Source: Planctomycetales bacterium
GTDB lineage: Bacteria; Planctomycetota; JAKEIC01
Assembly (NCBI GenBank): GCA_022614695.1
Contig: JAKEIC010000295.1
Location: 1-56,160, forward strand
Direction of reading: 5' to 3'
DNA: 56,160 nt
Shown here: positions 4,846 to 46,638 of the stretch, piece after piece
Layout: every line of letters begins with the position of its first letter
How positions within the stretch are numbered: the first letter of the stretch is position 1
Program-made: the position numbers and the translations under genes
The notes under the pieces: model-generated
The model's input: only the letters and a program-made list of their open reading frames with translations
What the model was told of the DNA's origin: nothing
The model's database searches: none

Positions 4846-4914
4846 GCTCTGTCTGGCAATCCCATGCCTACTGCGGCGCGCCATCCCCGTCGCCCGACTT
4901 CGTTACTCCTCCTC

Positions 4915-33003: not shown

Positions 33004-33030
33004 TGCCAAGGGGAGCCAGGGGACAAGTGA

Positions 33031-33090
33031 TGGGCGGGGCAGGAGTCGAACCCGCACGGGCGTATCGCCCGCAGGATTTTAAATCCCGCG
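33031..33090 (-). pseudogene. Displaced 3' half of host tRNA-Leu(UAA)
   Basis: Reading the minus strand, the anticodon arm (TTTAAAA loop), a well-paired variable arm, a T-arm with TTCGACT loop and the 3' acceptor strand CCCGCCC followed by discriminator A are all intact. The bases 5' of the anticodon arm do not form an acceptor or D-arm: only 3 of 7 acceptor positions pair. The missing 5' half (GGGCGGG acceptor and D-arm) is found at 46612-46638, and joining the two gives a perfect tRNA-Leu. This is the host 3' half left behind after integration. Confidence 0.85.
33072..33090. repeat. attL: 19-bp core direct repeat in the tRNA-Leu anticodon arm
   Basis: CAGGATTTTAAATCCCGCG, identical to 46595-46613. 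The match starts and stops sharply at both ends, which defines the crossover region to within these 19 bases. Confidence 0.9.
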
Positions 33091-33144
33091 ACACGTCGCC
33101 GAACCCTCCGACCCTGCGAGACTTGGGAGGAGCCTCGCCGCCGT

Positions 33145-33161
33145 GCTACGTCCGGCGCTAC
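33145..33161 (+). repeat. Candidate integrase arm-site (left)
   Basis: GCTACGTCCGGCGCTAC lies 55 bases inside attL. A 15-of-17 match in the same orientation lies inside attR at 46438. The unit holds two GCTAC half-sites. Confidence 0.5.
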
Positions 33162-33182
33162 ACAGAAACCGGGAAACGGGGG

Positions 33183-34358
33183 TCACGCGCCCTCCGCGGC
33201 ACGCCGCTCGGGCTCGCCGGACGGGGCCTCGCCCCATCGCTCCGCGAGCGCGTCCATGACGCAGCGCTCCGTCCCGGCCGGCAGGGCGCGGGAGTACCGG
33301 AGGCTCATGGAGAGCGTCTTGTGCCCGAGCACGGACGCGATGGCAGCGGGGCTCGCCCCCGAGGCGGCCAGGTGCGCCCCGACGTGGTGCCGCAGGTCGT
33401 GGAGCCGGAGCCCATCGAACTTGAGCCGATCCGCCGCGCGCCGGAAGCCGGCCGAGAGCGTGTCCGGCTTGAGCCCCGGGAGCACCGGGTCCTCCCCGCC
33501 GACGCGCGCGGGGCCCCTGGCGGCCGAGAGCCGTCCGAGGATGGCGAGCGCCCCGGGCGTCGCCGGGATCGCGCGGGGGCGGCCGTTCTTGGAGCGCCGG
33601 ACGAGGATCTCCCGGCGGGCGAGCGACACGTCGGCCCAGCGGAGGGCGAGGATCTCCCCGCGGCGCGCGCCGGTCTCGGCGAGGAGCCCCACCGCGGCCG
33701 AGACGGGGCCCTCGGGGATGGCAGCGACGATGCGGGCCAGGTCCTCGCGCGTGAGGAACGGGACGGCCCGGGCGGGCTCGGATGGCCGCTTGACGGCGCG
33801 CGCGGGGTTGTCCCGCATGTACCCGCGCTCAAGCGCGGCCTTGAAGCACGTCGAGAGCGCCGCGGCGTAGCGGTTGAGTGTGGGGACCGACGCGCCCCTG
33901 GCGTCCCGGACGTGGGCGAGGAAGTCGGCCACGTCGCCGGGGCCGACCTCGGACAGCGGCTTCCCGCCGAGGAACTTCGCGGCGACCCGCAGCCGCGGGA
34001 CCTCGCTCGCCACCGTGGCGGGGCCGTGCCGGTTCCCGAGCGTGGGCTCGTACACCTTGAGGAAGTCGGCGAGGCTCACGGGCTCGACTGGCTTCACCCC
34101 GAGGACGCTCTCGGTGGCGATGGCGAGCCGCCGCGACGCGAGGAGGGAGACGGCCAGGGAGCGGGACGCCCCAGCGCACTCCCACCGCTCCCGCCCGGCC
34201 CCGTCCGTGTATCGGACGTACCAGTTCCCCGGGCGGCCGTCCTTCCGCCGCCGGCGGATGATGGAGCCCCACTCCCTGCGCCGGGAGTGCTTCCCAACCT
34301 CCTTGACGCTCGGCGTGGCTACAACGCTGGTGGCCGAGAACCCTGTCACCTGGTCCAT
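33183..34358 (-). CDS. int: Tyrosine recombinase (element integrase)
   Basis: A 391-residue phage-type integrase. An N-terminal arm-binding part (WGSIIRRRRKDGRPGNWYVR) is followed by a SAM-like core-binding domain (VADFLAHVRDARGASVPTLN) and the catalytic domain. Catalytic residues are visible in LLAETGARRGEILALRW (Arg), LRLHDLRHHVGAHLAASG (His-x-x-Arg) and LGHKTLSMSLRYSR (His and the Tyr nucleophile). It should drive integration at the 19-bp tRNA-Leu core. It lies immediately inside attL and points toward it. The HTH gene ends 3 bases upstream, so the two are co-transcribed. Confidence 0.93.
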   Translation of the reverse strand: MDQVTGFSATSVVATPSVKEVGKHSRRREWGSIIRRRRKDGRPGNWYVRYTDGAGRERWECAGASRSLAVSLLASRRLAIATESVLGVKPVEPVSLADFLKVYEPTLGNRHGPATVASEVPRLRVAAKFLGGKPLSEVGPGDVADFLAHVRDARGASVPTLNRYAAALSTCFKAALERGYMRDNPARAVKRPSEPARAVPFLTREDLARIVAAIPEGPVSAAVGLLAETGARRGEILALRWADVSLARREILVRRSKNGRPRAIPATPGALAILGRLSAARGPARVGGEDPVLPGLKPDTLSAGFRRAADRLKFDGLRLHDLRHHVGAHLAASGASPAAIASVLGHKTLSMSLRYSRALPAGTERCVMDALAERWGEAPSGEPERRAAEGA

Positions 34359-34361
34359 GAG

Positions 34362-34625
34362 CTACCCCCTCTCGGCGGGCGGCCAAGCGCCCGCGAGCCA
34401 CAAGTCCACGATGCGGCGGTAGAGCCCCCGGGGTTCCGTGCCCAGCTCCCATTCAGCGAGCGTGACACGGTTCGCCCCAATCTCATCGGCAGCAGCCGCC
34501 TGCGAAAGCCTGCGCCTAGCCCGCTCGCGGATGAGACGGCCCGCGAGTCCGAGCGGACGCCCCCCCGCCCGATCCTTGTGCGGCCGGGCGATCGGGCCTC
34601 CTAGCCTCGGAGCGGTGGGAGACAT
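34362..34625 (-). CDS. XRE/Cro-like HTH regulator
   Basis: An 87-residue protein. After a basic N-terminal stretch comes a five-helix DNA-binding domain: LAGRLIRERARRRLSQAAAA, DEIGANRVTLAEWELGTEPR, GLYRRIVDLWL. The Q-A-A-A-A-D-E-I-G motif fits an XRE-type helix-turn-helix. ATG 34625 is preceded by a strong promoter 7 bases away and lies within an inverted repeat, which suggests autorepression. Being just upstream of the integrase, it may control excision and integration. Confidence 0.75.
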   Translation of the reverse strand: MSPTAPRLGGPIARPHKDRAGGRPLGLAGRLIRERARRRLSQAAAADEIGANRVTLAEWELGTEPRGLYRRIVDLWLAGAWPPAERG

Positions 34626-34642
34626 GTCGTTTATACTACATG
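34623..34642. promoter_or_regulatory. Inverted repeat (operator candidate) over the HTH promoter
   Basis: CATGT (34623-34627), 10 bases, ACATG (34638-34642). It spans the start codon and the -10 box of the HTH gene, the expected place for autorepression. Confidence 0.4.
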
Positions 34643-34661
34643 AGTCACTGAGCCGCGTCAA
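34633..34661 (-). promoter_or_regulatory. Promoter of the HTH-integrase operon
   Basis: TTGACG (34656-34661), a 17-base spacer, TAGTAT (34633-34638), then 7 bases to ATG 34625. No Shine-Dalgarno; a leaderless start is predicted. Confidence 0.65.
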
Positions 34662-34828
34662 GAAGGGGGTATCCCGAAGATGGGCGCAGGAAGCACGAGG
34701 ACCCAGGGAGTCGCCCCAGGGCATGCCCAGGGCGTTCCCCCTTCCTGGTGAGAGGGGGCCGCCGGAGCCATCGGGAATGAGGGGCCAATAGTCGCGGAAC
34801 CTGGACGGGGAATTGGGGAAGTCTCAGC

Positions 34829-34856
34829 TTGACTCTCGGGGCGACCAGTCGAGAAT
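34829..34856 (+). promoter_or_regulatory. Promoter of the 34866 gene
   Basis: TTGACT, a 16-base spacer, GAGAAT, then 9 bases to GTG 34866. It is divergent from the integrase operon. Confidence 0.55.
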
Positions 34857-34865
34857 CGGGGTGTT

Positions 34866-35366
34866 GTGTCGGTCAGCTCTCTCCTGACAAGGGCGCGGGT
34901 TGGCCGCGCACCGATGACCCACCGCCCGCCCCCTACGCCACTCCGGATGCTGGTCGTACCTGGAGGCGGAACCCGGTACACGATTCCGGACGCCCGTGCG
35001 CCAAGTGTTCCGATTCAGCAGGTCCAGGCGACCATCATGAGTGCGCGCATCGCTCTCGCTTCCAAGGCCGAGGGGATGTCTCCCACGGACCTTGCGAAGT
35101 GCGTGATTCAGGTGCTCAAGGCGCCAGCCAGGATCTACGTGGGCAACTCGGGAGGATGGTACTACTTCCTCAACTCCAGGAAGCTGACCGCCCAGGTGCC
35201 GCGGGTCCACCTCGCGAAGGTGCCAAGCTCTGTCTTCTGCGCACGAGTGCGACCCGACGCGGTGCCTCCAGGGCTAGTCGTGAGCGTCTGCTCGTTTGAG
35301 GCAAGCGACCCGATGGACCCCGATTCTCCACTGGATCGGCGGACCCGCCAAACTCTGATACTATAG
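34866..35366 (+). CDS. Hypothetical element protein with aromatic core motif
   Basis: A 166-residue protein of unknown family. The first 55 residues look disordered. The rest is compact: MSPTDLAKCVIQVLKAPARI, YVGNSGGWYYFLNSRKLTA, VHLAKVPSSVFCARVRPDAV. The GGWYYFLN strand and the SVFCARVRP strand resemble small phage nuclease or toxin-like folds, but I cannot assign one. GTG 34866 is supported by the promoter 9 bases upstream; an ATG at 35037 would give a 109-residue protein. The stop is followed after 8 bases by the DUF2283-like gene, so they form an operon. Confidence 0.55.
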   Translation: MSVSSLLTRARVGRAPMTHRPPPTPLRMLVVPGGGTRYTIPDARAPSVPIQQVQATIMSARIALASKAEGMSPTDLAKCVIQVLKAPARIYVGNSGGWYYFLNSRKLTAQVPRVHLAKVPSSVFCARVRPDAVPPGLVVSVCSFEASDPMDPDSPLDRRTRQTLIL

Positions 35367-35374
35367 GGGTGAGC

Positions 35375-35830
35375 ATGCGACTCGAAGATGCCTTCGAGGA
35401 ACTCGAACGCGACGCCAAGGGCGTCGGTGAGCCCCCGTTCGCGTGGTTCAACCCCGATGGGGACACGCTCGAAGTCTACTTCGAGGCCGGGCCGAGGCTC
35501 GCCGAGCGCGTGGACGACCTCATCTCGGTCTTCGTGTCCGCCGAGGATGAGAGCCGGGTCGTAGGGCTCGCCATCAAGAATATCACCAAGCACTTCGGGG
35601 CCAGCGGCATCAAGGGCGCCTTCCTCGCGCCCGGGAAAGCCAAGCTGGCAGCGCTCATTGCGGGTGCGCACTTCGCGCTGGGGTATCGGTTGGAGCGAAC
35701 CATGGGGGCACGGCCCGTTGAGCATCTCACCCGATACCGTGACCTGATCCGCCGAGTCGGCGACCGAGAGATAGACGTCCCGAAGGAGATGTTCGCGGGC
35801 CACGGCGCGCCACAGGGGTCGGCCCAGTAG
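35375..35830 (+). CDS. DUF2283-like protein
   Basis: A 151-residue protein. The N-terminal part has the DUF2283 pattern: FAWFNPDGDTLEVYFEAGPR, RVDDLISVFVSAEDESRVVG, LAIKNITKHFG. The C-terminal half is helical and basic (LTRYRDLIRRVGDREIDVPK). The function of DUF2283 proteins is not established; they are often near toxin-antitoxin genes. The ATG has AGGGG about 5 bases upstream; a GTG at 35369 is an alternative. It is in an operon with the preceding gene. Confidence 0.6.
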   Translation: MRLEDAFEELERDAKGVGEPPFAWFNPDGDTLEVYFEAGPRLAERVDDLISVFVSAEDESRVVGLAIKNITKHFGASGIKGAFLAPGKAKLAALIAGAHFALGYRLERTMGARPVEHLTRYRDLIRRVGDREIDVPKEMFAGHGAPQGSAQ

Positions 35831-35883
35831 GCCCCCTGCGCGCTGATCGGCGGCCACTGAACGTCGCGCCGGGTGTCTCTCGC

Positions 35884-36014
35884 GTGGCCCGCCCTTCCGG
35901 GCCGGCAGGGAGCATTGATCTGGACGCGCCGACGTAGTAGTCTCACGTCGCGGCCGGAAGGCCGCATCACCGGGGCCGAAGCCCCGGCAGCACGCATCCG
36001 GGCCCGACGGCCCG
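35884..36014 (+). other. Array of four GC stem-loops ending at a ribosome binding site
   Basis: Four perfect hairpins in 131 bases: GGCCCG/CGGGCC (35884-35901), GCGGCC-GGAA-GGCCGC (35950-35965), CCGGGGC-CGAA-GCCCCGG (35970-35987) and CGGGCC-CGAC-GGCCCG (35999-36014). The last one ends at the GAGGAGG that serves GTG 36027. They could act as an RNA leader controlling the 36027 gene, or as transcription pause or stop signals. This accounts for the gene-free stretch 35831-36026. Confidence 0.6.
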
Positions 36015-36026
36015 AGGAGGTTGGCC

Positions 36027-36662
36027 GTGAAGCCGAACCGCAAGCGATCCTGGTACGGGACGAGGGGCAACCTGCCCCTGCCGGTGCCCGGGGGCCAGAA
36101 CACCTCAGCGCCAGGCGCGCGAAGTCTGGTGGGCGTCGGCACTCCTCCCACAGCCACGCCGCCTGAGCCGGCGACGCTCTTGGAGACCCTCCCCGCGGAG
36201 TTGGCCGCGGAGCGGACAAGCGTGCTCGCCGCTCGTCAGGACGAAGTTTCGCATCTCGTCGCCCAACTCGACTTGCACGCCCGGCGGCTCGGCGAGCGCT
36301 TCGGTGTGCACGGCGAGCCGCTCCCGCTTGAGCGGCGGCCCGAGTCGCCGAACCTGGGGCTCGAAGTCCTTCGCGCGATGCTCGTCGCGGAGAAGACGTT
36401 TCGCCTCACGCGGCACAGCGAGCGATGGGGGATCTTCTACCTGGAGGGTCTGACGATCCTGAGTGCTGCGCGCCAGCCCGACGGGGGCGGAGTCGTGCGT
36501 CCGCTGCCGGAGTGCTCCATCGAGGTGAAACGGCGCTTCCTCCAGGTCTCCCGTGACTTCTTCGCTGCGTACCTGGGGCGCGTCCGGGAGACGGTCGCCG
36601 GGATCGAGACCGACCTCGGCCTGGGGATGGGGGTGCTAGAGGCGCTTCAGCGACTGGCCTAG
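36027..36662 (+). CDS. Hypothetical element protein
   Basis: A 211-residue protein with no recognised domain. A disordered Pro-rich N-terminus (residues 1-45) is followed by helices: TLLETLPAELAAERTSVLAA, RQDEVSHLVAQLDLHARRLG, GLEVLRAMLVAEKTFRLTRH, VKRRFLQVSRDFFAAYLGRV. The GTG start is set by GAGGAGG 6 bases upstream; a TTG at 36021 overlaps that site. It could be a DNA-binding or structural helper of the element. Confidence 0.5.
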   Translation: MKPNRKRSWYGTRGNLPLPVPGGQNTSAPGARSLVGVGTPPTATPPEPATLLETLPAELAAERTSVLAARQDEVSHLVAQLDLHARRLGERFGVHGEPLPLERRPESPNLGLEVLRAMLVAEKTFRLTRHSERWGIFYLEGLTILSAARQPDGGGVVRPLPECSIEVKRRFLQVSRDFFAAYLGRVRETVAGIETDLGLGMGVLEALQRLA

Positions 36663-36739
36663 AGGTGCGCACCCAGGGATGGGCGTCGTCCGGCCGGTCG
36701 GCAAGTCTCGTGAAGGGCCATGGGCCCAGAGGAGTCCAC

Positions 36740-36988
36740 GTGTGGTACTGCAAGAGTTGTAGGTGCTACGTCCACGACAACGAGGCGGTCACTTCCAACG
36801 ACGCGAAGGCGCTCTGCGGACTTGGCGGAGCGGGCCTCGGAGCAAGGGGCGGCGTCTGGGGCGCTCTCGCGGGTGCCCTGCTCGGCGCGCTCGCCGGTGC
36901 CGTGATTGACGCCTACGTGCGCCCCAAGTGCCCTGTCTGTGCGACGGTGCTCCGCGCGGTCGCCGACGACTTGCTCGGGGCGGGATAG
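36740..36988 (+). CDS. Small zinc-binding protein with glycine-rich membrane segment
   Basis: An 82-residue protein. Two CxxC pairs (WYCKSCRCYVH near the start and PKCPVCATVL near the end) probably bind one zinc. Between them is a Gly/Ala-rich hydrophobic run with GxxxG spacing (ARGGVWGALAGALLGALAGA), like a glycine-zipper membrane hairpin. GAGGAG lies 6 bases before GTG 36740. The layout suggests a zinc ribbon split by an inserted transmembrane hairpin. Function unknown. Confidence 0.5.
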   Translation: MWYCKSCRCYVHDNEAVTSNDAKALCGLGGAGLGARGGVWGALAGALLGALAGAVIDAYVRPKCPVCATVLRAVADDLLGAG

Positions 36989-37063
36989 CCGGACCACACT
37001 CCTGTCGCGGAGGCTCCGCCCACGGCGCCATCCTTGGGGCGGAGGGGGCGTGTCTCTCGCCCA

Positions 37064-37636
37064 TCACACCCACCGGGACATCGCCTCGTGCACGACCATG
37101 CACTCCAGTTCCAACAGGTCCTCCACCCGGGCCGTGAGCTGCGCCCGTCTCTTCCGGTAGCGTGCCTTCGCGAGTCGGCTCTCGATCCGCGCCTGAGCCG
37201 AGCGGATGCTGGCCAACTCCGCGCCGAGGTCACGGTGCCGTCGGCGGCAGCGGTACGTGAGGCGGGAGCACGCCCGACAGGCGAAGTAGCGCCCCGAGAA
37301 GTAGATCAACCCGCAGCGCCGGCCGCAGCCCTGTGCGGGGCAGCGGAACCACGGCCTCGCCCCCCCATACCCGCACGCGGTCCACTCGATCGTCACGGCG
37401 TAGGAGACCTCCTCCTGGTCCACGACGTAGGCGAACCCGAGCGTCTGGCAACCTCGGCCGGAGCCCCGTACGGGCCGCGTACCGATGCGCGCCAGGACTT
37501 CCTTTTCTCGCTTCCACTCCCAGACTTGATCGCCGACGAGCCCGCCGCCTCGGTACACGCCGAGGATGTCCAGCCGGTAGGACTCGCCGACGAGCCCCGT
37601 CCACCGCCGCGGGGGGCCGCTCCCCCAACCGCCCAT
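37064..37636 (-). CDS. Conserved mobile-element protein with two CxxC zinc sites
   Basis: A 190-residue protein that starts MGGWGSGPPRRWTGLVGESY, the typical opening of a family common in prophages and integrative elements. Further on is the characteristic WFRCPAQGCGRRCGLIYFSG and FACRACSRLTYRCRRRHRD, two CxxC-type knuckles forming a zinc ribbon, then a basic helical tail. Function is unknown; a nucleic-acid-binding role is likely. GGAGGA lies just upstream, and the ATG overlaps the preceding stop (TGATG). Confidence 0.7.
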   Translation of the reverse strand: MGGWGSGPPRRWTGLVGESYRLDILGVYRGGGLVGDQVWEWKREKEVLARIGTRPVRGSGRGCQTLGFAYVVDQEEVSYAVTIEWTACGYGGARPWFRCPAQGCGRRCGLIYFSGRYFACRACSRLTYRCRRRHRDLGAELASIRSAQARIESRLAKARYRKRRAQLTARVEDLLELECMVVHEAMSRWV

Positions 37637-37902
37637 CACTCCTCCAGGCTGGCCAGCAACTGCTCGGTCCTGGTGGGCGGCCGGGGCGGGACCCCGCCTA
37701 CCTGTCGGAGCGCGAGGTCCTGATCCACGGCCGTCGCGGGGACAATCCCCGCGCGGCTCAGGACGGCCTCGCACGCTCGAAGTCGGACTCGCTCATCCTT
37801 CGCGTCGAGGAGGCCCACGAGCGCGGAGGCGGCCTTCCCGATGGCGGCTCGCAGCGCCGCCCTCGCCTCGCTCAGTTCCTTCGCCTGGTCTTCTCGGTTC
37901 AT
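37636..37902 (-). CDS. Small helical element protein
   Basis: An 88-residue protein, entirely helical in appearance: MNREDQAKELSEARAALRAA, SALVGLLDAKDERVRLRACE, AVLSRAGIVPATAVDQDLAL. The middle resembles one or two HEAT-like hairpins of the kind seen in some phage small proteins. GGGAGGG lies 4 bases before the ATG. It is translationally coupled to the zinc protein downstream. Family and function are not recognised. Confidence 0.5.
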   Translation of the reverse strand: MNREDQAKELSEARAALRAAIGKAASALVGLLDAKDERVRLRACEAVLSRAGIVPATAVDQDLALRQVGGVPPRPPTRTEQLLASLEE

Positions 37903-37922
37903 GCGCCCTCCCTGTTTTCGGC

Positions 37923-37950
37923 CGCTCGGATTTCCGTAATCATCCGAGCG
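37923..37950. repeat. 9-bp perfect inverted repeat between element genes
   Basis: CGCTCGGAT, 10 bases, ATCCGAGCG, in the 66-base spacer between the excisionase-like gene and the 88-residue protein gene. It could be a terminator-like hairpin or an operator; there is no long T-run. Confidence 0.6.
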
Positions 37951-37968
37951 AGCACTCCTCCCTAGCTC

Positions 37969-38334
37969 TCACCGCCTCCGCTTCGGCTGACGCCCCAACC
38001 CGGGGACCACGCCGCACGCGCGCCGCTGGGGCTCCTCGGGCATCTCCCGGGCGATCCAATCGAGCAGGACTACCCGGGTCACGAGCCACGCCCGCCCGAG
38101 TCGTCGGCAGCCTGGGACCTCCTGCCGGCGCGCGAGCCGTCGGAACTCGGCAAGCGTTGTCCCGAGTGCCTGCGCGGCCTCCTCGGCCGTCCACGTGAGC
38201 CGCCCCGGGAGCCCCTGAGCCGCGGCAGGAGCCTCGGGGGCGGGCGAGCGGGCCTCGGCGCGGGGCGTGGAACCTTGGGCGGGGGCCTCGGGGCCTGTGG
38301 GGGCGGGGAGCGGATCGGGCTCGCCCGGGTGCAT
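37969..38334 (-). CDS. Excisionase/MerR-like HTH protein
   Basis: A 121-residue protein. After a Pro/Ala-rich N-terminus comes a small winged-helix DNA-binding domain: LTWTAEEAAQALGTTLAEFR, RLARRQEVPGCRRLGRAWLV, TRVVLLDWIAREM. This is the helix-turn-helix pattern of excisionases and 'HTH_17' proteins. GGAGG, located inside the end of the primase gene, serves its ATG, and the two genes are 1 base apart. It may control directionality of recombination or transcription of the replication module. Confidence 0.65.
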   Translation of the reverse strand: MHPGEPDPLPAPTGPEAPAQGSTPRAEARSPAPEAPAAAQGLPGRLTWTAEEAAQALGTTLAEFRRLARRQEVPGCRRLGRAWLVTRVVLLDWIAREMPEEPQRRACGVVPGLGRQPKRRR

Positions 38335-38335
38335 C

Positions 38336-40528
38336 TCAACCCTCCTGCCCGGGCTCGCGATCCGGAGGCGTCGGAGGGGGGGAGGGGGTGTCTATCCCCC
38401 CGCGCAACGGTGCAACCGTGCAACGGTCCTCGCCGAGGAGGGCCTCGGGTGACGGGAGGAGAGGCTCGTCCTCGGGGAGCGGGTCGCCGAGGACGTACCG
38501 GGCTGGCCGGCCCTTTCGTTCCTCCTCGTTCCGGAGGAACCCCCGGTCCTCGGCGCGCGATGCCCGGCGGGAGGCGGCGGACTTGTCGAGGTGGAGGGCT
38601 GCCGCGAGCTTGGCGACGGAGACAGGGCCGGGCCCAAGCGCGCAGACCTTCTCGACGGCCTCCCGCACCTCCGGCGAGACGGTGCGCTCGGCGGCGTCGG
38701 CCAGGAGGGCTGCGACCAGCTCGCGGACAGCGGCGTAGTCCGCTAGAGTCGCCACGACTCGTCCGGCGGGGTCTCTCTCCCGCGTCGCGCGGTGCAAGAG
38801 GGCGTGAGCCTCGACGAGACGGAGAACCGCCCCGAAGTCGCGGCGCAGCCTGACGGCGACGGGCGGGATCAGCTTCGCGAGCGCCTCCGCGTAGGGGACG
38901 ACGACCTTGGCGTGCTCCGCGGCCTGCCACTCCTGCAACGCGATCCACGGGGCCGGGTCGGGACTGTCGGCCGCGCCCTTGGCGCAAGCGAGGAGCACGG
39001 CTTTCGTTTGCTCCTGCGTGTCGGTGACAGGCACCGAGAGGAGCCTCGTCTCGTTCTCCGGATGGAGCCTGACGGCCGTCGTGGTCACGAGGAGCCCGGT
39101 CGGACCCTCCCGCTCGATCAGGCGGGGACGCAGCCCGTCCTTGGTCTTCTCGACTGTCTCGTACCGGAGCCTTCCCTCGGAGAGCAAGGAGCGGACGAGG
39201 TAGCTCGCAAACTCGGACTTCAAGCCGACGGCCTCGTACACGACGAGCATCCGGTGCGAGAGCGGCTCCTCGGAGTAGGCGAGCGCCCGCTCGGACATGG
39301 CAGAGAGCGCGTAGTAGGCCGACAATGGGAAGAACACGAGGACGCGCTCGACGACGAAGGACTTCCCAGCGGACGACGGTCCCTTCACGACGACGGAGAC
39401 GGGACGCGCGAGGAGCCGGCTCGTCACCGACAGGTAGAGGAGCTTCGCGGCCCGAGACTCGCCGACGACGCCAGCCTGCTCGACGGCCGTAGCGAACTTG
39501 TCGAGGATGTCCCGCTCCCGCGCGAGGTCCCCGCATCGCCCCAGGGCTATCGCAGCTCGGCCGCGGGCCTCCGACGACTCCTCCTCGGTCCACGGCCGGG
39601 CCGCCGCGAGAGCGGCCTCCCACCGCTCGCGGAATCGAGCGGGGTCGGAGAGGTAGAGCGCGCTCGGGTCCTTCGTCGCCGCCGGGAGTCGGACGAGCCG
39701 AACCCGGTCCCGGATCTTCGAGCGAGCCACCCAGGCGAGGACCGCCTCGCCGCCCGTGTCGGGCTCGACGAGGACGTAGATCGTCGCGATTCCGTCGAGA
39801 AGGGGCGCCCACTCCTCGCGCCAGGTCGTCGCCCCGGGGAGTCCGAGCGCTGGGAAACCGTGGAGCCAAAGGGTCTGCGAGTCGGACTCGCCCTCGACGA
39901 GCGTGACGGCTCCGGCCTTCCGGACGTCGTCGAGCCGCCAGAGCCCGTACAGGATCGGCTTCGAGCCCTTCCGCCACCGGAACTTGTCCTTCGCGTCGAG
40001 CGCGATCCGGAACCGGACCGCGGCCTCGCCTCCGTCCTGGGATCGGTAGGGGATGCGAACGGCCGGGCGGCCGCGCAGGGACAGGTCCGAGAGCCCGATC
40101 TCCCGCAAGAAGTCGAGCGGAAGGCGCTTCGCCTCACCATAGGCGCCGAGAGTGCAGCCGGGGTGTTGCGCCGTTGCGCCGTTGATCGGGGGGATAGAGG
40201 ACCCCCCCTCCCCCTCGGCGTGGGGCTTCCCGTTGGAACCTGAGCCTCCGAGATAGGTCTCCTCGATCCACCGTGCGGCATCGGCACGGCGCCCGAGGGC
40301 GCGGACGCGACACGTCACGTCGAGGAGGCCGAGGGAGAGCCCGCAGGCGAAGCACTTCACTCCGCCCCGTTGGGCGTTGACCTGCATCGAGGGGTGAGCA
40401 TCGCCGTTCTTGTGCTTCCCCGCGTCCAGACACCGGACCTTGCCCTCGGGGTTCGGCTCGCCGAGGAGGTCGCGTAGGACGCGAGCCCGCCCATCAGGAC
40501 CCAGCCGCTCGATGATGGTCGGACTCAC
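38336..40528 (-). CDS. Primase-helicase of the element (CHC2-like zinc, Toprim, P-loop ATPase)
   Basis: A 730-residue replication protein. A zinc-binding region (C33, H39/H45, CFACG with C59 and C62) is followed by a Toprim core (VTLVEGESDSQTLWLHGFPA with Glu212, and VLVEPDTGGEAVLAW with the Asp). An ATPase domain has Walker A GPSSAGKS at 383-390 and a following acidic strand (MLVVYEAVG). The C-terminus has a winged-helix pattern (VSVAKLAAALHLDKSAASRR). It probably primes and unwinds element DNA. The GTG start overlaps the stop of the preceding HTH gene. Confidence 0.85.
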   Translation of the reverse strand: MSPTIIERLGPDGRARVLRDLLGEPNPEGKVRCLDAGKHKNGDAHPSMQVNAQRGGVKCFACGLSLGLLDVTCRVRALGRRADAARWIEETYLGGSGSNGKPHAEGEGGSSIPPINGATAQHPGCTLGAYGEAKRLPLDFLREIGLSDLSLRGRPAVRIPYRSQDGGEAAVRFRIALDAKDKFRWRKGSKPILYGLWRLDDVRKAGAVTLVEGESDSQTLWLHGFPALGLPGATTWREEWAPLLDGIATIYVLVEPDTGGEAVLAWVARSKIRDRVRLVRLPAATKDPSALYLSDPARFRERWEAALAAARPWTEEESSEARGRAAIALGRCGDLARERDILDKFATAVEQAGVVGESRAAKLLYLSVTSRLLARPVSVVVKGPSSAGKSFVVERVLVFFPLSAYYALSAMSERALAYSEEPLSHRMLVVYEAVGLKSEFASYLVRSLLSEGRLRYETVEKTKDGLRPRLIEREGPTGLLVTTTAVRLHPENETRLLSVPVTDTQEQTKAVLLACAKGAADSPDPAPWIALQEWQAAEHAKVVVPYAEALAKLIPPVAVRLRRDFGAVLRLVEAHALLHRATRERDPAGRVVATLADYAAVRELVAALLADAAERTVSPEVREAVEKVCALGPGPVSVAKLAAALHLDKSAASRRASRAEDRGFLRNEEERKGRPARYVLGDPLPEDEPLLPSPEALLGEDRCTVAPLRGGIDTPSPPPTPPDREPGQEG

Positions 40529-40839
40529 GAGCTCCCCCCGAGGCGGCCATCCTCTGCCCGGTGCGAGCACTCGGCGCAGTACCACGGCCCCCGCGGCCCG
40601 TCGTAGCCCGCCGCCTCCGACGGCCGGATCCGCTGCCCACAACGGCCGGCGCACGGTCTTGGCCGGTCGGGGTCGCCGGGCGGTTCAAGGGCAAGGACAA
40701 GATCCTCTTCTGCGACTAGCAACCGTCGGCCAACCCTGACGCCGGCAAGTCTGCGGGTGTGGATCCACCGCGCAACCGTTCGTGCGGAAATCCGCAACCG
40801 ACGCCCGCACTCCTCTGTCGTCAAGTACGCTGGAGCCAT
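40525..40839 (-). CDS. Excisionase-like HTH protein with C-terminal zinc ribbon
   Basis: A 104-residue protein. The N-terminal half is a clear excisionase/AlpA-type domain: YLTTEECGRRLRISARTVAR, WIHTRRLAGVRVGRRLLVAE. The C-terminal half has Cys pairs (CAGRCGQRIRP and WYCAECSHR) for a zinc ribbon. It is the first gene of the operon with the primase-helicase, and its upstream region contains two 17-bp direct repeats that it may bind. It could be a replication initiator accessory or a transcription regulator. Confidence 0.7.
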   Translation of the reverse strand: MAPAYLTTEECGRRLRISARTVARWIHTRRLAGVRVGRRLLVAEEDLVLALEPPGDPDRPRPCAGRCGQRIRPSEAAGYDGPRGPWYCAECSHRAEDGRLGGSS

Positions 40840-40890
40840 CGCCCGTGAGAGTCGCGGACGAGCGCGCGCTCACGCGAGTTTCGCGGGGAG

Positions 40891-40927
40891 ATGCGGGAGG
40901 TTACGGGCGAATGCGGGAGGTTACGGG
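40891..40927. repeat. Two 17-bp direct repeats (iteron-like) upstream of the replication operon
   Basis: ATGCGGGAGGTTACGGG occurs at 40891-40907 and 40911-40927, a 20-base period or about two helical turns. The repeats lie 52 bases upstream of the excisionase-like/primase operon. A -10-like TAGGAT on the minus strand is at 40928-40933. Confidence 0.8.
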
Positions 40928-40930
40928 ATC

Positions 40931-42460
40931 CTATCGAGCAGGCTGCGTGGGCCGGGAGGGTGGAGCCCCCCCCAGAGCTTCCCAGCGCGCGCTACCTTCC
41001 TGGGCGGGCGTCTGCTTCGGCCGCTCCGCCTCGCGGACTCGCTTGAAGTCGTCTATGACCCACTCCACGCGAGCGGCGCAGAGGAACGGCTGGCCCTTCT
41101 TGCTGTGCTCACGCACGCATGCCGCTACCGGCTCGAAGGGATCGTCGGCGGGAGGGGACTTCGAGAGACGCCGGAGCTTCTCCTCAAGTTTCCGAGCACC
41201 CATGAAGTCGGGGCCAAGGACGGAGTTCAGGCGGTCGGCCGCCTCCCGATTCGACAGACGTGGGCCACCGTGTTCCGGGATCGTCTGTCCCGGTTGCGGA
41301 GTAGGTAACTCTGAGACTGCCAGCGGCTCACCTGCGGCAGGTGAAAAGGTCACGGCCACCTTCTCCCCACCCGCGCCCGCGGTGTCTGAGATGACGACCT
41401 CGAATGTCCAGGTTCCATCCGTATTCCTCGTCCCGTCTCCGGTTACCCAAGCACTCTGGCCATGCGTGCCGGTGAGGCCCGGGACGGGCTGGACTGCGTA
41501 GGAGCGAAGGGTGCAAACCTTCACCGATTGCGAGCCTTCGGGCACGGTGACCAAGCGCGAGTCCGAGAGGGGAGGGATCGTCCCGTCGTGTGGGTCTCCC
41601 GCGGGCCTTCCGGAAGTCCGGTCGTCTCTCGGCGCGGAGACGGCCTTGGCCCCGGCCTGGACGAAGAGGACCGAGACCCGGACTCCACCGGCGGGAGCGA
41701 AGTCGGAGATCCTGAGCGTCATGCTCCACGTCCCGTCACCGTTGCGCACCGGGTCGTCGTAGCTGACACCGTAGATGCCGCCGTGTGACCCGCCTGATGC
41801 CGTCGCCATCACCGTGGGGGGATCGGGGTAGATCCCGCCCGAGGTCACGGTTACGGAGCGCGAGCCGGCGGGAACCGTCACTACTTGCGCATCGGACTCC
41901 GCGACCCGAGGGGGCGGGCCGAGCAACTCACGGATCTCGGGAGGTATCTTCGCCTCGCGTCTCCCTGCCTCGCCCGGGGCCGGCCCTGTTCGAGGACCAC
42001 CAGGACCCGTGGCGCCAGCAGCCGACGCGACTACCACGCCCAGCGCCGCGCTGATCGCCTCGGCCAATTCCCGGAGGTGTGTGATTCGCTCTCCCGCCCT
42101 TCTGGCCTGCTCCTCATGCTTGCGGTGTGCCCCCGCGCCCTCCTGGCGAGCGCGCTGCTCGGCTGTCGCCTTCTCAATCTCGTACTCCCTGAGCCAGTAC
42201 CGAACGCGCCCAAGTTCACGGGCCACCTCAGTTCGCTCAGTCGGGGACAGCACCTCCTCGCGGCGGTCTTCAAGCTCTCGCAGACGGCGGACTATCGCCT
42301 TGGTGCTCGGCGCCTGGGTAGCTGGGCCCGGACTGCTGTACCCATCCGGGACCAGGATCGCGTCCAGGTCCGCTTCGCGCTGCGCGTCCTCCAGAGCCTT
42401 CGCACGATGCGCGTCGAGTGCCGGTTGACCGTCGCTCGGAAGCTCGGTAGGGTCGGGCAT
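40931..42460 (-). CDS. Two-repeat beta-domain protein of the element
   Basis: A 509-residue protein of unknown family. Residues 1-150 are charged helices, partly coiled coil (AIVRRLRELEDRREEVLSPT, EKATAEQRARQEGAGAHRKH), with one weakly hydrophobic stretch (AISAALGVVVASAAGATG). Two homologous beta domains follow: VVTVPAGSRSVTVTSGGIYP ... NGDGTWSMTLRISDFAPAGG and LVTVPEGSQSVKVCTLRSYA ... NTDGTWTFEVVISDTAGAGG, each with a GTW-type strand. The C-terminus is helical. Neither an enzyme nor a phage structural protein is recognisable. ATG 42460 has GAGGG upstream and a leader hairpin just before it. Confidence 0.55.
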   Translation of the reverse strand: MPDPTELPSDGQPALDAHRAKALEDAQREADLDAILVPDGYSSPGPATQAPSTKAIVRRLRELEDRREEVLSPTERTEVARELGRVRYWLREYEIEKATAEQRARQEGAGAHRKHEEQARRAGERITHLRELAEAISAALGVVVASAAGATGPGGPRTGPAPGEAGRREAKIPPEIRELLGPPPRVAESDAQVVTVPAGSRSVTVTSGGIYPDPPTVMATASGGSHGGIYGVSYDDPVRNGDGTWSMTLRISDFAPAGGVRVSVLFVQAGAKAVSAPRDDRTSGRPAGDPHDGTIPPLSDSRLVTVPEGSQSVKVCTLRSYAVQPVPGLTGTHGQSAWVTGDGTRNTDGTWTFEVVISDTAGAGGEKVAVTFSPAAGEPLAVSELPTPQPGQTIPEHGGPRLSNREAADRLNSVLGPDFMGARKLEEKLRRLSKSPPADDPFEPVAACVREHSKKGQPFLCAARVEWVIDDFKRVREAERPKQTPAQEGSARWEALGGAPPSRPTQPAR

Positions 42461-42472
42461 GTCGTTTCCCTC

Positions 42473-42511
42473 GCGCCCGCGGGATAACCTCGCCAAAGGT
42501 CCCGCGGGCGC
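42473..42511. repeat. 11-bp perfect inverted repeat in the divergent control region
   Basis: GCGCCCGCGGG, 17 bases, CCCGCGGGCGC. On the minus strand the hairpin ends right before the ribosome binding site of the 42460 gene. On the plus strand it is followed by CTTTCTTTT and could act as a terminator. Confidence 0.7.
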
Positions 42512-42591
42512 CTTTCTTTTCCACATCCCAGGGACTCAGGTCAAGGGAAACAACTCGGATCGCCACGCGCCTGGAGGGGCCGGAGGCAACC

Positions 42592-42628
42592 CCCCCGTCC
42601 CCCCCACGCCAATCGTGGTGGACGGGGG
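42592..42628. repeat. Strong two-part hairpin in the divergent control region
   Basis: CCCCCGTCC pairs with GGACGGGGG (9 bp), and inside it CCACG pairs with CGTGG around a 5-base loop. It belongs to a 503-base gene-free stretch (42461-42963) that also holds the inverted repeat at 42473 and the large structure at 42824. I see no coding region in that stretch. Confidence 0.65.
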
Positions 42629-42823
42629 CGTGCGTGCGCCGGGCTGGGGCACGTCGTCGGCCTGAGCCGAGAGCTGCGCGTGCCTGGGCGCCAGGATGCG
42701 GAAGGGCGGAGGGCGAGTCAAGGGAATCCGGTCCATCACCCCTCGGTAAGACCCGCTGGGCCAAGCAGGGCTCGGGAGTAGCTGGCTCCGGTTGTAGGCG
42801 GCGGGGGTCCGGGGTAACGTAGC

Positions 42824-42957
42824 CCTCGGCCTGGGAGGGCTTGGTACCGGGGAGGAGCTTCGCTCCACCCGGCCAACGGTTCGGAGCGTCCGCGCTGACG
42901 CTGGGCTTCGGCCCGGCGTCGGCGGTTGCGGGCGCTCCGAGCCCTCCCAGGCCGGGG
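42824..42957 (+). ncRNA. Candidate structured RNA: three-way junction upstream of the methyltransferase gene
   Basis: Pairing read directly from sequence: P1, an 18-bp closing stem (42824-42841 with 42940-42957, one G-T pair). P2, TTGG/CCAA plus CCGGG/CCCGG with a GGAG/CTCC hairpin (42841-42876). P3-P4, an 11-bp stem (42882-42892 with 42929-42939) running into a 14-bp stem (42893-42906 with 42911-42924) capped by a C(TTCG)G tetraloop, with a 4-base GTTG bulge. Almost every base is paired. The structure ends 6 bases before ATG 42964 and takes up the only purine-rich ribosome-binding candidate. It may be a cis-regulatory leader, a separate RNA, or a DNA-level origin structure. Confidence 0.6.
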
Positions 42958-42963
42958 TTTCCA

Positions 42964-44703
42964 ATGCCGTCGGCGTCGGGCTCTTATCCGAGACGCGCAG
43001 CGCGGAGCCGGCTGCGCAGGCGGTCCGTTTCCGCGTCTGCCGCGAGCCGACCGGCCGAGGCGGAGAACGTCCTCTACTACGGCGACAACCTAGACATCAT
43101 CCGCCGTTATGTGAAGGACGAGACGGTGGACCTCGTGTACCTCGATCCGCCCTTCAACTCGAACCAGGACTACAACGTCCTCTTCGCCGAGCAACCTGGG
43201 AAGCGGTCGGCCGCTCAGATCCGCGCCTTCGAGGACACCTGGACCTGGGATGTAGGGGCTGAGGCGGCGTACGTCGAGGTCGTCGAGGGTGGGGGAAAGG
43301 TGGCGGACGCCCTCCGAGCGTTCCGCACCTTCCTCGGCGAGAGCGACATGATGGCGTACCTCGCGATGATGGCTCCTCGGCTCGTTGAGTTGCGCCATGT
43401 TCTCAAGCCGACGGGCTCGATCTACCTCCACTGCGACCCGACGGCCAGCCACTACCTCAAGATGCTCTTGGACGGCATCTTCGATCCCCGCCGATTCAGG
43501 AGCGAGATCGTCTGGAAGCGAAGCAGCGCGCACAGCGACACGAAGCAGGGGCGCCGTCAGCACGGGAGGATCCATGACATCCTGTTCTTCTACACGAGGG
43601 GTGATTCCTGGGGGTGGACTCCCGTGTACACGCCCTACGACCCGGAGTACGTGGAGCAGTTCTACCGCCACGTCGAGGAGGGGACCGGAAGGCGGTACCG
43701 GCTCGGGGACCTCACGGGGCCAGGGGGGGCTGCGAAGGGAAACCCGCGGTACGAGGTCATGGGCGTCACTCGCTACTGGAGGTACACCGAGCAGAAGATG
43801 CGCGAGTTGATTCGCCTGGGGCGGGTCGTGCAGACCCGGCCGGGCACAGTCCCTCAATACAAGCGATACCTCGACGAGATGCCCGGCGTCCCCTTGCAGG
43901 ACGTGTGGACCGACTTGAAGCCGATCGGAGCGCAAGCCGCGGAGCGCCTGGGCTACCCCACCCAGAAGCCCGAGTCGCTCCTGGAGAGGATCGTTCGGGC
44001 GGGTAGCGAGGAAGGCGCCACCGTGCTCGATCCCTTCTGTGGCTGCGGGACAGCCATCGCGGTCGCGCAGCGCCTCGGCCGCCGCTGGGTTGGGGTAGAC
44101 ATCACCCACCTTGCCGTCGGGCTCATCAAGCACCGACTCCAGGACGCGCATGGGCTCGTAGCGGGGAAGGACTACCAGGTGGTCGGCGAGCCCGCGGATC
44201 TCGCTGGCGCGGCGAGGCTCGCCGGGGAGGATCCGTACCAGTTTCAGTGTTGGTCCCTCGGGCTCGTCGGCGCAAGGTCGGCAGACATAAAGAAGGGAGC
44301 GGACCGGGGAGTGGACGGCCGACTCTACTTCCACGACGAGAAAGGCAGCGCCAAGACGAAGGAGATCGTCTTCTCGGTGAAGGGGGGGCACACGGGGGCC
44401 GGGGACGTGAGGGACCTTCGCGGGGTCGTCGAGAGAGAAGGGGCCGCGATCGGAGTCCTCATCTCGCTCCAGGAGCCGACGGCACCGATGCGCGCAGAGG
44501 CCGCGAAGGCCGGATTCTACGAGTCGCCGACGTACCGGAAGAAGTACCCGAGGCTGCAACCTCTCTCGATCGCGAACCTCCTCGACGGAAGGAGGATCGA
44601 GTATCCCCCGTCCCGATACGTGGACGTGCCGATGCACAAGCCGGCGCCGCGAGCGACCATGGCGGAGACACGCCCGCTCCCGTTCGGGAAGGAGGAGGAG
44701 TGA
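42964..44703 (+). CDS. Site-specific DNA methyltransferase fused to Mrr-like nuclease domain
   Basis: A 579-residue fusion. The beta-type amino-methyltransferase part has ENVLYYGDNLDIIRRYV, the catalytic DPPF (61-64) in LVYLDPPFNSNQDYNVLF, a target-recognition middle and the AdoMet-binding ATVLDPFCGCGTAIAVAQRL. The last 150 residues match the Mrr/PD-(D/E)XK type: KGADRGVDGRLYFHDE, IVFSVKGGHTGAGDVRDLRG, GAAIGVLISLQEPTAPMRAE. A single protein may thus modify and cut DNA. ATG 42964 is the only canonical start after the hairpin and gives about 33 extra basic residues before the family's usual start. Confidence 0.88.
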   Translation: MPSASGSYPRRAARSRLRRRSVSASAASRPAEAENVLYYGDNLDIIRRYVKDETVDLVYLDPPFNSNQDYNVLFAEQPGKRSAAQIRAFEDTWTWDVGAEAAYVEVVEGGGKVADALRAFRTFLGESDMMAYLAMMAPRLVELRHVLKPTGSIYLHCDPTASHYLKMLLDGIFDPRRFRSEIVWKRSSAHSDTKQGRRQHGRIHDILFFYTRGDSWGWTPVYTPYDPEYVEQFYRHVEEGTGRRYRLGDLTGPGGAAKGNPRYEVMGVTRYWRYTEQKMRELIRLGRVVQTRPGTVPQYKRYLDEMPGVPLQDVWTDLKPIGAQAAERLGYPTQKPESLLERIVRAGSEEGATVLDPFCGCGTAIAVAQRLGRRWVGVDITHLAVGLIKHRLQDAHGLVAGKDYQVVGEPADLAGAARLAGEDPYQFQCWSLGLVGARSADIKKGADRGVDGRLYFHDEKGSAKTKEIVFSVKGGHTGAGDVRDLRGVVEREGAAIGVLISLQEPTAPMRAEAAKAGFYESPTYRKKYPRLQPLSIANLLDGRRIEYPPSRYVDVPMHKPAPRATMAETRPLPFGKEEE

Positions 44704-44795
44704 GCCGCGAAGGGAAGACGTCCGATGTGTAGCGTGGAGGGCCGCCTCTCCGACACGGCCCATGAGATTCTCCCGAAAGGTGCCTAGCTGGCGCT

Positions 44796-45003
44796 CCCCC
44801 TATGCTAGAACACGCTCCGCCCGCGCGGAAGCGCGGGACGAGACAATGCTAGACCTGAGTCGCACGCCGGGCTCCGTGGGCGGCCGAAAGGCCGGGCGGG
44901 GCGGCCATGTCATCTCCTCCGGGCCCCCGCGTCTAGCGGGACAACCCGGCTCGGCCGTTCCCGTTCTTCCGACCCGCGTCCCGGCGGGCGGCTCTTTTAC
45001 TCG
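44796..45003 (+). other. Highly structured non-coding stretch between methyltransferase and LRAT genes
   Basis: The gene-free stretch 44704-45117 contains a cluster of perfect hairpins: CCCGCGC-GGAA-GCGCGGG (44820-44837), CGGCC-GAAA-GGCCG (44881-44894), and CCCGC-GTCTA-GCGGG (44926-44940) nested in CCGGG/CCCGG (44919-44949). A further GC stem precedes CTCTTTT near 44990. ATGCTAGA is repeated at 44802 and 44846, flanking the first hairpin. It may be a small RNA gene of about 200 bases ending in a weak terminator. The open frame across it has no coding character. Confidence 0.4.
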
Positions 45004-45117
45004 TTCCACCGAGTCGGCCCTCCGGGCCCTGATCCGCCAGTAGCGGGCGCGGAGAAGACAGGAGCCGCCGCAGACGTCTGGCTGAGGAACCCGCCTTCCT
45101 GTACCCTCAGGCGAGCC

Positions 45118-45678
45118 ATGACGGCCGGTCCGGAGTCGCCCACCTCCTCAAGCACCAAGGACCCGCTGCCCGAGACCGCGGTGGTCGCCCCCGGGGACAT
45201 GATCGCCGTGCCGGCATGGGTTCCAGGCGTGGAGCATGTCGGCACCTACGTTCCCGACGGGCCCGAAGGGGAGAACGTGGTGCACAACACGAAGCACGGC
45301 CCGAGGCGCGTAATATGGGAGACCTGGGAGCGGTTCTCTGGAGGGGGCCCCGTGCGCATCGTCCGGGCCGCCCCACCGCAGGAGCGCCCGGCGATCATGG
45401 CACGCGCCCTTACCCAAGTCGGCCAGCCCTACCGGCTGTTCCGCAACAACTGCGAGCACACGGCCTGGTACGCCCAGACCGGTGTTCGCCAGAGCCCCCA
45501 ACTCCAGCGCGCCGGGCAAGCGGTCGCCGCGTTCGCTCTGGCCGTCGTGGAGTCGCTCGCGAGAGGTGTCGCCGAGGCAGCGAAGCCGCACCCCTGCTTC
45601 GCAGTGACCGGGAGAGGGCTGCCGTGCAAGCGCATCGCCGGGCCCTTCGAGTCGCACTGCTGGCAGCACCGCCGGTAG
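45118..45678 (+). CDS. LRAT-domain protein (NlpC/P60-superfamily acyltransferase-like)
   Basis: A 186-residue protein. The LRAT fold is visible: APGDMIAVPAWVPGVEHVGT with the conserved His, VVHNTKHGPRRVIWETWERF, and RLFRNNCEHTAWYAQTG, whose NCEH motif provides the nucleophilic Cys. LRAT-like enzymes move acyl groups or cleave lipid or peptide bonds; in mobile elements they may act on the envelope. A hydrophobic helix (GQAVAAFALAVVESLARGVA) could attach to membrane, and the C-terminal Cys/His (CFAVTGRGLPCKRIAGP, HCWQH) may bind metal. No Shine-Dalgarno is obvious. Confidence 0.7.
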   Translation: MTAGPESPTSSSTKDPLPETAVVAPGDMIAVPAWVPGVEHVGTYVPDGPEGENVVHNTKHGPRRVIWETWERFSGGGPVRIVRAAPPQERPAIMARALTQVGQPYRLFRNNCEHTAWYAQTGVRQSPQLQRAGQAVAAFALAVVESLARGVAEAAKPHPCFAVTGRGLPCKRIAGPFESHCWQHRR

Positions 45679-45869
45679 CGGTCGAGGATCGCTGCGATCG
45701 AGTACGGGAGGCGCGCGCGCGAATGCGTGGAGCGTGTCTCGCGCCGACAGACCTGACGGGTCCGAGCACCAGCGTCCCACCGCGAGCCGTCCCAGTCTCT
45801 CCGTTCTACCGTCGCGCGAGGAGCTTCCGTCGCCCCTTAGCCACGGCCTGCGATGAAGAGAGGCCACCT

Positions 45870-45900
45870 GGGGCTCCCCTTGAGGAATGCAAGGAGCCCC
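45870..45900. repeat. Hairpin in the 279-base spacer before the HTH gene near attR
   Basis: GGGGCT pairs with AGCCCC and CCTT with AAGG, with a 2-base bulge. It is followed by less GC-rich DNA (45905-45950) that probably holds the promoter of the 45958 gene. Nothing else is recognisable in 45679-45957. Confidence 0.5.
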
Positions 45901-45957
45901 CTGGAAACTACGGGAAATCCATCGTTTTCAGCCATGATCCTGATAAGCTTCTTGCAC

Positions 45958-46344
45958 ATGCCACGCGCCACCGAGAGCGTCGCGCGCCCTCGCCGGGAGC
46001 GGGCCTTCCCCCTGTTCCTCGCGGGCCGCACCGATGCCGAGGTCGCGGCCGACGTCGGGGTGAACCCTGCGACCGCCTGGCGGTGGCGGAAGCGCCCTGA
46101 GGTCCAGAGCGAACTACATAGACGCTGGCTGGACGCGGCAGAGTTCGCCGTGCTGGGCGACCCCTCCGGGCGCTTCCGCTTCCCGCGGACGCCGCTCAGG
46201 TACGCGCGCAGGTTGCTGGCGCTGGCCGTGGACACACTCTCCGGGACGAGAGATCCGTGGCGGCGGCAGTCCGCGAGACTCGCCGCGATGGATCTCGTGG
46301 GCTGGGGCCTCATCCGAGAGAGAGTGAGCGCGCATAGACAGTAG
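45958..46344 (+). CDS. HTH protein near attR (homeodomain-like, terminase-small-like)
   Basis: A 128-residue protein. Residues 10-55 form a homeodomain-like helix-turn-helix: RRERAFPLFLAGRTDAEVAA, DVGVNPATAWRWRKRPEVQS. This pattern is shared by phage small-terminase and transposase N-terminal domains. The rest is helical (RFPRTPLRYARRLLALAVDT). It could recognise element DNA ends. ATG 45958 was chosen because the HTH begins soon after it; upstream in-frame ATGs exist at 45853 and 45934. A -10-like GATAAG lies 11 bases before it. Confidence 0.55.
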   Translation: MPRATESVARPRRERAFPLFLAGRTDAEVAADVGVNPATAWRWRKRPEVQSELHRRWLDAAEFAVLGDPSGRFRFPRTPLRYARRLLALAVDTLSGTRDPWRRQSARLAAMDLVGWGLIRERVSAHRQ

Positions 46345-46437
46345 GGGATTTCGAGCCGCGGGCGGGTGTTGCCCGATCGAGGCTCGCCGGATCGCGCCTG
46401 ACTCGCCACCGGAGCGTGGTAGGGGGGCGCTGCCCGC

Positions 46438-46454
46438 GCTACGTCCGTTGCTAC
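46438..46454 (+). repeat. Candidate integrase arm-site (right)
   Basis: GCTACGTCCGTTGCTAC, 15 of 17 identical to 33145-33161 and in the same orientation, 141 bases inside attR. The last 208 bases of the element (46345-46552) hold no other recognisable feature. Confidence 0.5.
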
Positions 46455-46552
46455 GTTCGCGTGTAGCTACAAGCGATCCTGTCGGATTCCGTTCGCTCCC
46501 GTGCGCGCGCGTCCTCCGCGCCGCAACACTCGGCCTCGCAATCGGTTCGCTG

Positions 46553-46638
46553 CGGGCGGGAGGGGATTCGAACCCCCACGACCCCTGCGGGCCACAGGAT
46601 TTTAAATCCCGCGCGTCTGCCGGTTCCGCCACCCGCCC
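46553..46638 (-). tRNA. tRNA-Leu(UAA), reconstituted by the element
   Basis: On the minus strand: acceptor GGGCGGG with CCCGCCC, D-arm GCG/CGC, anticodon arm CGGGA-TTTAAAA-TCCTG with anticodon TAA, a long variable arm and T-arm GGGGG-TTCGAAT-CCCCT. All stems pair. The 5' half up to the anticodon arm is host-derived; the 3' half comes from the element. The discriminator base is G, whereas the displaced host 3' half has the A expected for tRNA-Leu. CCA is not encoded. Confidence 0.93.
46595..46613. repeat. attR: 19-bp core direct repeat
   Basis: CAGGATTTTAAATCCCGCG, identical to attL at 33072-33090, within the anticodon arm of the tRNA-Leu gene. Confidence 0.9.

Follow-up and report, generated by a model that had tools for sequence, protein, structure and literature searches.

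Does the 134-nt stretch at positions 42824-42957, which lies just upstream of a DNA methyltransferase gene in a Planctomycetales bacterium, form a structure that has been kept by selection, and does it serve that gene or something else? The window, i.e., the whole stretch of 56,160 nt that was analysed, carries this site in a divergent gap between a leftward operon and the rightward methyltransferase gene. Folded as RNA, the stretch reaches a minimum free energy of -115.5 kcal/mol, compared with -72.4 +/- 4.3 kcal/mol for 200 dinucleotide shuffles (z -10.1), and it is the lowest-energy fold in the 56-kb window, the next best lying at about -98 (134-nt windows placed every 20 nt on both strands). 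The fold contains 57 base pairs in 134 nt and confirms the stable three-way junction that had been described in an earlier note on this DNA. The side hairpin and the TTCG tetraloop named there are found as well, but the closing stem measures 17 bp and not 18, the long arm 26 bp and not 25, and the bulge reads GGTT instead of GTTG. Four pairs are wobbles, all of them T-G on the plus strand, A-C pairs are absent, and the complementary strand folds more weakly (-97.7). Another short G+C-rich hairpin (ACCCCCCCGTCCCCC / GGTGGACGGGGGCGT) is located in the same gap at 42589-42631, upstream of the three-way junction.

A single-sequence covariance model, searched against 199 relatives, returned a single other match with an E value of at most 0.1, which belongs to the same genome (C150:14031-14152, minus strand, 61 bits, E 1.4e-7). 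This second copy, of which plain DNA comparison recovered just the 3' half, keeps all three elements of the fold (closing stem, side hairpin, and long arm), and its own fold has a z of -7.8. In the two-copy alignment, which was fitted to the structure and from which the pair counts are taken, 98.1% of the cells are standard pairs and 10 pairs are altered on both sides; with the partners slid by 1-3 columns, 37-49% are paired and 0-2 double changes are seen. Model fitting cannot explain the pairing in the closing stem or in the proximal half of the arm, since the alignment has no gaps there. The second copy therefore supplies the compensatory changes in a homologue that the earlier note had set as a check. 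Its proposal that the G-T pairs favour selection as RNA is in line with the polarity of the wobbles, which favours the plus strand as the folded one: wobble pairs outnumber A-C by 11:1 on the consensus pairs and by 8:1 after folding both strands and pooling the results (p about 0.04). Selection on 42824-42957 as a folded strand is supported by these comparisons of sequence. The letters of the bulge, terminal loops, linkers, and junction differ between the copies (n = 2 sequences), which does not fit a riboswitch-type aptamer, where unpaired nucleotides of loops or junction would be conserved. The family so far consists of these two copies from one draft genome, which is 88% complete.

The similarity between the copies continues past the closing stem. 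Over 38 nt it lies above all 5000 random pairings, beginning right after the stem with GTTTCC in one copy and GTTCCC in the other, and past about 43000 it is not significant (p 0.33). On the other side, the promoter-like pair listed in Table 1 has a counterpart at the matching place of the second copy, TTGACT-N17-TAGCTT, and in both copies the pair ends 2-3 nt before the stem. The pattern TTGnnn-N16..18-TAnnnT occurs eight times in the 112 kb of strand in the window, or 0.07 per kb; the hexamers are weak compared with the consensus (6/12 and 8/12), and a stricter consensus promoter scan listed the pair of neither copy. Such a pair just ahead of both stems makes a transcription start at the first stem pairs plausible, and the putative RNA would probably have its own promoter. 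No intrinsic terminator follows the tail, as there is no T-run after either copy and the scan contained no terminator-like site. Within the window, the complement of the tail was found at the tail's own site and in one chance match with one mismatch, neither of which is a target, and the matches with two mismatches to the tail motif elsewhere in the genome are protein-kinase coding sequence.

Table 1. Features of the window around the three-way junction and of the island that contains it.
Feature	Positions	Strand	Basis
Left 19-bp repeat in tRNA-Leu(UAA)-like sequence, presumed attachment site	33072..33090	-	Repeat comparison
Tyrosine integrase of the island of copy 1	33183..34358	-	Protein comparison
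Primase/helicase-like gene of the island of copy 1	38336..40654	-	Protein comparison
Promoter-like TTGTAG (42792-42797) - N17 - TAACGT (42815-42820)	42792..42820	+	Ends 3 nt before closing stem; suggestive
Three-way-junction structure, conserved core	42824..42957	+	Fold, second copy, pair conservation
Closing stem, 5' strand, 17 bp	42824..42840	+	17/17 pairs retained in copy 2, 3 via two-sided changes
Side hairpin	42841..42876	+	Present but shorter in copy 2
26-bp arm; GGTT bulge 42924-42927, c(TTCG)g tetraloop 42907-42910	42881..42940	+	6 double compensatory pairs across its two halves
Closing stem, 3' strand	42941..42957	+	Pairs with 42824-42840
Conserved 3' tail GTTYCCAAwG...CGGCGyCGG	42958..42995	+	Similarity to copy 2; conserved fold not found
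N6/N4 DNA methyltransferase with Mrr-type nuclease domain; conserved part from near 43066	42964..44703	+	Homologue comparison
Right 19-bp repeat in tRNA-Leu(UAA), presumed attachment site	46595..46613	-	Repeat comparison

Neither copy matches a family of Rfam 15 at its gathering score, the matches to the whole window being two tRNAs, and in permissive Rfam scans of the two copies the families that came up were eukaryotic or viral, at chance level. The genome holds no further DNA copies beyond the one on C150. No third member was found among the relatives, either with models searched on 199, 392, and 39 genomes or with copy 2 as DNA on 99; the large-scale model searches evaluated a small number of candidates in each genome and may have passed over distant homologues, and the genome's order is represented in the list of relatives by one other genome. 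Three candidates, L331, L119, and L456 in G025, were discarded as chance or coding matches. Phages and plasmids gave no match to the structure, the fold was absent among the matches listed for three DNA patterns searched in viral contigs, and viral contigs searched with both integrases contained no relatives.

Judged from its sequence, the region 33072-46613 is an integrative element of about 13.5 kb at tRNA-Leu(UAA). The tRNA-Leu(UAA)-like sequences at 33029-33111 and 46552-46638 have 19 identical bases in common, which lie on the anticodon arm, and the G+C content between them is about 0.69, compared with about 0.75 outside. In addition to the integrase and the primase/helicase-like gene, the element codes for a helix-turn-helix protein, two HTH_17 (excisionase-like) proteins, an LRAT-domain protein, and a terminase-small-subunit-like protein, and it looks like a phage satellite or something similar. 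The second copy is flanked on one side by a kelch lipoprotein gene. On its other side come genes of low G+C content, together with genes for a SymE-like toxin, a helix-turn-helix protein, and a tyrosine integrase that is 31% identical to the integrase of the first island. This second island, at about 14.3-22.1 kb of C150 (L169 14361 to L170 5652), also carries small genes without an assigned function. No tRNA, clear attachment repeats, or boundaries could be located for it, which places copy 2 either within or next to this island.

The methyltransferase gene itself has an unusual beginning. Of 133 homologues, 126 have a start codon no more than 12 residues from the conserved part of the protein, and the gene in the window has none there. 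The ATG at 42964 does follow the structure by 6 nt, as had been noted earlier, but it lies 34 codons upstream of the conserved protein and falls within the conserved tail, where copy 2 has AAG instead. From this ATG to the conserved part, the G+C contents of the three codon positions are 0.64/0.85/0.79, unlike the 0.66/0.45/0.86 of the coding part. It is probably not the conserved start of the methyltransferase, and the gene may use a far-upstream ATG or a rare start codon, or may be impaired.

One explanation of the structure is that of a cis-acting 5' leader, in which the structure and the tail would be part of a 5' UTR and would lower or time translation or transcription of the gene downstream. 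Both copies are on the strand of the downstream gene and at a similar distance from its coding sequence (about 108 nt from the conserved methyltransferase start and 111 nt from the kelch ATG), and both gaps are divergent, so either strand would lead into a gene. If translation begins at ATG 42964, the only nearby start would be crowded by the stem. However, the two downstream genes are unrelated: the kelch family has 97 matches in the genome, so the gene downstream of copy 2 is probably a host gene. The structure was also absent near about 135 methyltransferase homologues (80 genome loci and 56 viral loci), where the best model matches had E values of 0.05 or worse, and the variable terminal loops and linkers are unlike those of a ligand-binding leader. 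The idea of a cis-regulatory RNA dedicated to the methyltransferase-nuclease gene, raised in the earlier note, fails on these loci, as none of the 80 genome contigs and 56 viral contigs conserves the structure upstream of a related gene, and on the kelch gene behind copy 2. A leader of a more general kind is doubtful but, given the similar spacing at the two sites, is the strongest competing explanation; the methyltransferase is probably a bystander.

The structure could instead act as single-stranded DNA of the islands, as a replication or transfer origin or as a recombination site read as a hairpin, which is considered quite unlikely. Both sites lie in or beside integrase-coding islands, the basal stem and its flank are conserved, and G-T wobbles are tolerated in DNA hairpins too. 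An origin structure, which had also been suggested, fits the primase-like gene of the first island, but no primase, replication, or relaxase gene was found near copy 2 among the frames scanned. Integron attC sites are likewise long imperfect hairpins near an integrase gene, whereas here the boxes GTTRRRY / RYYYAAC are in neither copy, the structure is a three-way junction and not a single hairpin, and the integrases are ordinary tyrosine integrases of the phage type; the promoter-like pair ahead of both copies is a further argument against a DNA structure. An attachment site was rejected as well, since copy 1 lies 3.6 kb inside the end of its island and no direct repeat joins copy 2 with the opposite end of its own. 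Stems this stable and rich in G+C, lying between genes, would suit a transcription terminator or an insulator shielding divergent island operons, yet the T-run and terminator-like site are lacking, and such an element needs neither a conserved three-way junction nor a conserved 38-nt tail, which makes this function very improbable. Hardly credible is a dispersed palindromic repeat of the REP or MITE type without its own function: two diverged copies in one genome are what it would leave, but the compensatory changes reach deep into all helices, the homology extends asymmetrically past the stem, and two copies are all that were found in the genome.

The stand-alone RNA is the best fit among the three options of the earlier note. 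The fold retained by compensatory changes, the conserved tail, the integrase islands at both sites, and the unrelated downstream genes point to an island-borne RNA, and the chance that the locus is a gene for a new structured non-coding RNA carried by integrative islands is put at about even. An inferred promoter, facing away from the integrase-primase operon, would start transcription at the opening pairs of the closing stem or close to them and would yield a discrete transcript. This RNA would fold into a rigid and probably nuclease-resistant three-way junction with capped loops, displaying at its 3' side the conserved tail GGUUYCCAAwG..., which is likely single-stranded. As a guess, it may act in trans via its tail and the stem base and regulate the life cycle of the island. 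A wider proposal, offered with considerable reserve, is that it represents a new class of mobile-island RNA, present in different island types of one lineage and directed in trans at the host, helper phages, or competing elements. The RNA may, for example, serve as a decoy that binds a defence protein or an RNA-binding protein, and would in this way be a working part of island biology and not of one gene. Most RNAs encoded by the mobile islands of poorly sampled bacteria are uncharted, because conservation-based searches tend to miss horizontally acquired RNAs. With two diverged copies, two integrase neighbourhoods, and clear covariation, an RNA family can be defined here that has no match in the libraries searched.

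Among the small RNAs made by integrating elements are CI, from satellite phage P4, and the P4-like SeqA and Gifsy-1 IsrK RNAs (PMC4825925). In P4, processing of the replication-operon leader releases the CI RNA, which base-pairs with sites in the same transcript and controls the element's own operon (PMC4825925). The CI RNA is the nearest analogue in its way of working, being a structured RNA from an integrating element with integrase and primase-type genes. In contrast, the RNA proposed here would come from the strand opposite the primase operon, its loops are capped and tetraloop-like, and its tail has no target in the window; it has no sequence match to the CI RNA, and the features that define CI were not found. 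GOLLD, ROOL, and HEARO are also conserved structured RNAs tied to mobile DNA and found by comparative folding, but those exceed the present structure in size or are linked with a nuclease gene, and both copies described here are without an Rfam match. Packaging RNAs of the phi29 type are about 120-170 nt long, with a three-way junction and paired 5' and 3' ends. The structure resembles them in size range, junction, and paired ends; its capped tri- and tetraloops, however, would probably not interlock with one another in loop pairs as those of the pRNA do, and no packaging ATPase of the phi29 type was seen near either copy.

Some observations concern the neighbouring genes. Strong hairpins or REP-like repeats occur directly 5' of several methyltransferase-Mrr homologues in other bacteria and one viral contig (L046 2010-2075, L103 about 4795-4850, and L089 upstream of 3001), and the hairpins near the homologues L046, L103, L016, and L089 are unrelated to the fold of copy 1 and to one another. 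The kelch-repeat family of the genome is very large, with many members in open frames of more than 1000 residues. Relatives of the island primase/helicase were found in 25 of 199 related genomes (a count that includes its own) and also on a viral contig of 15.6 kb. Several lie near an integrase gene, which indicates a wider family of such elements in the phylum.
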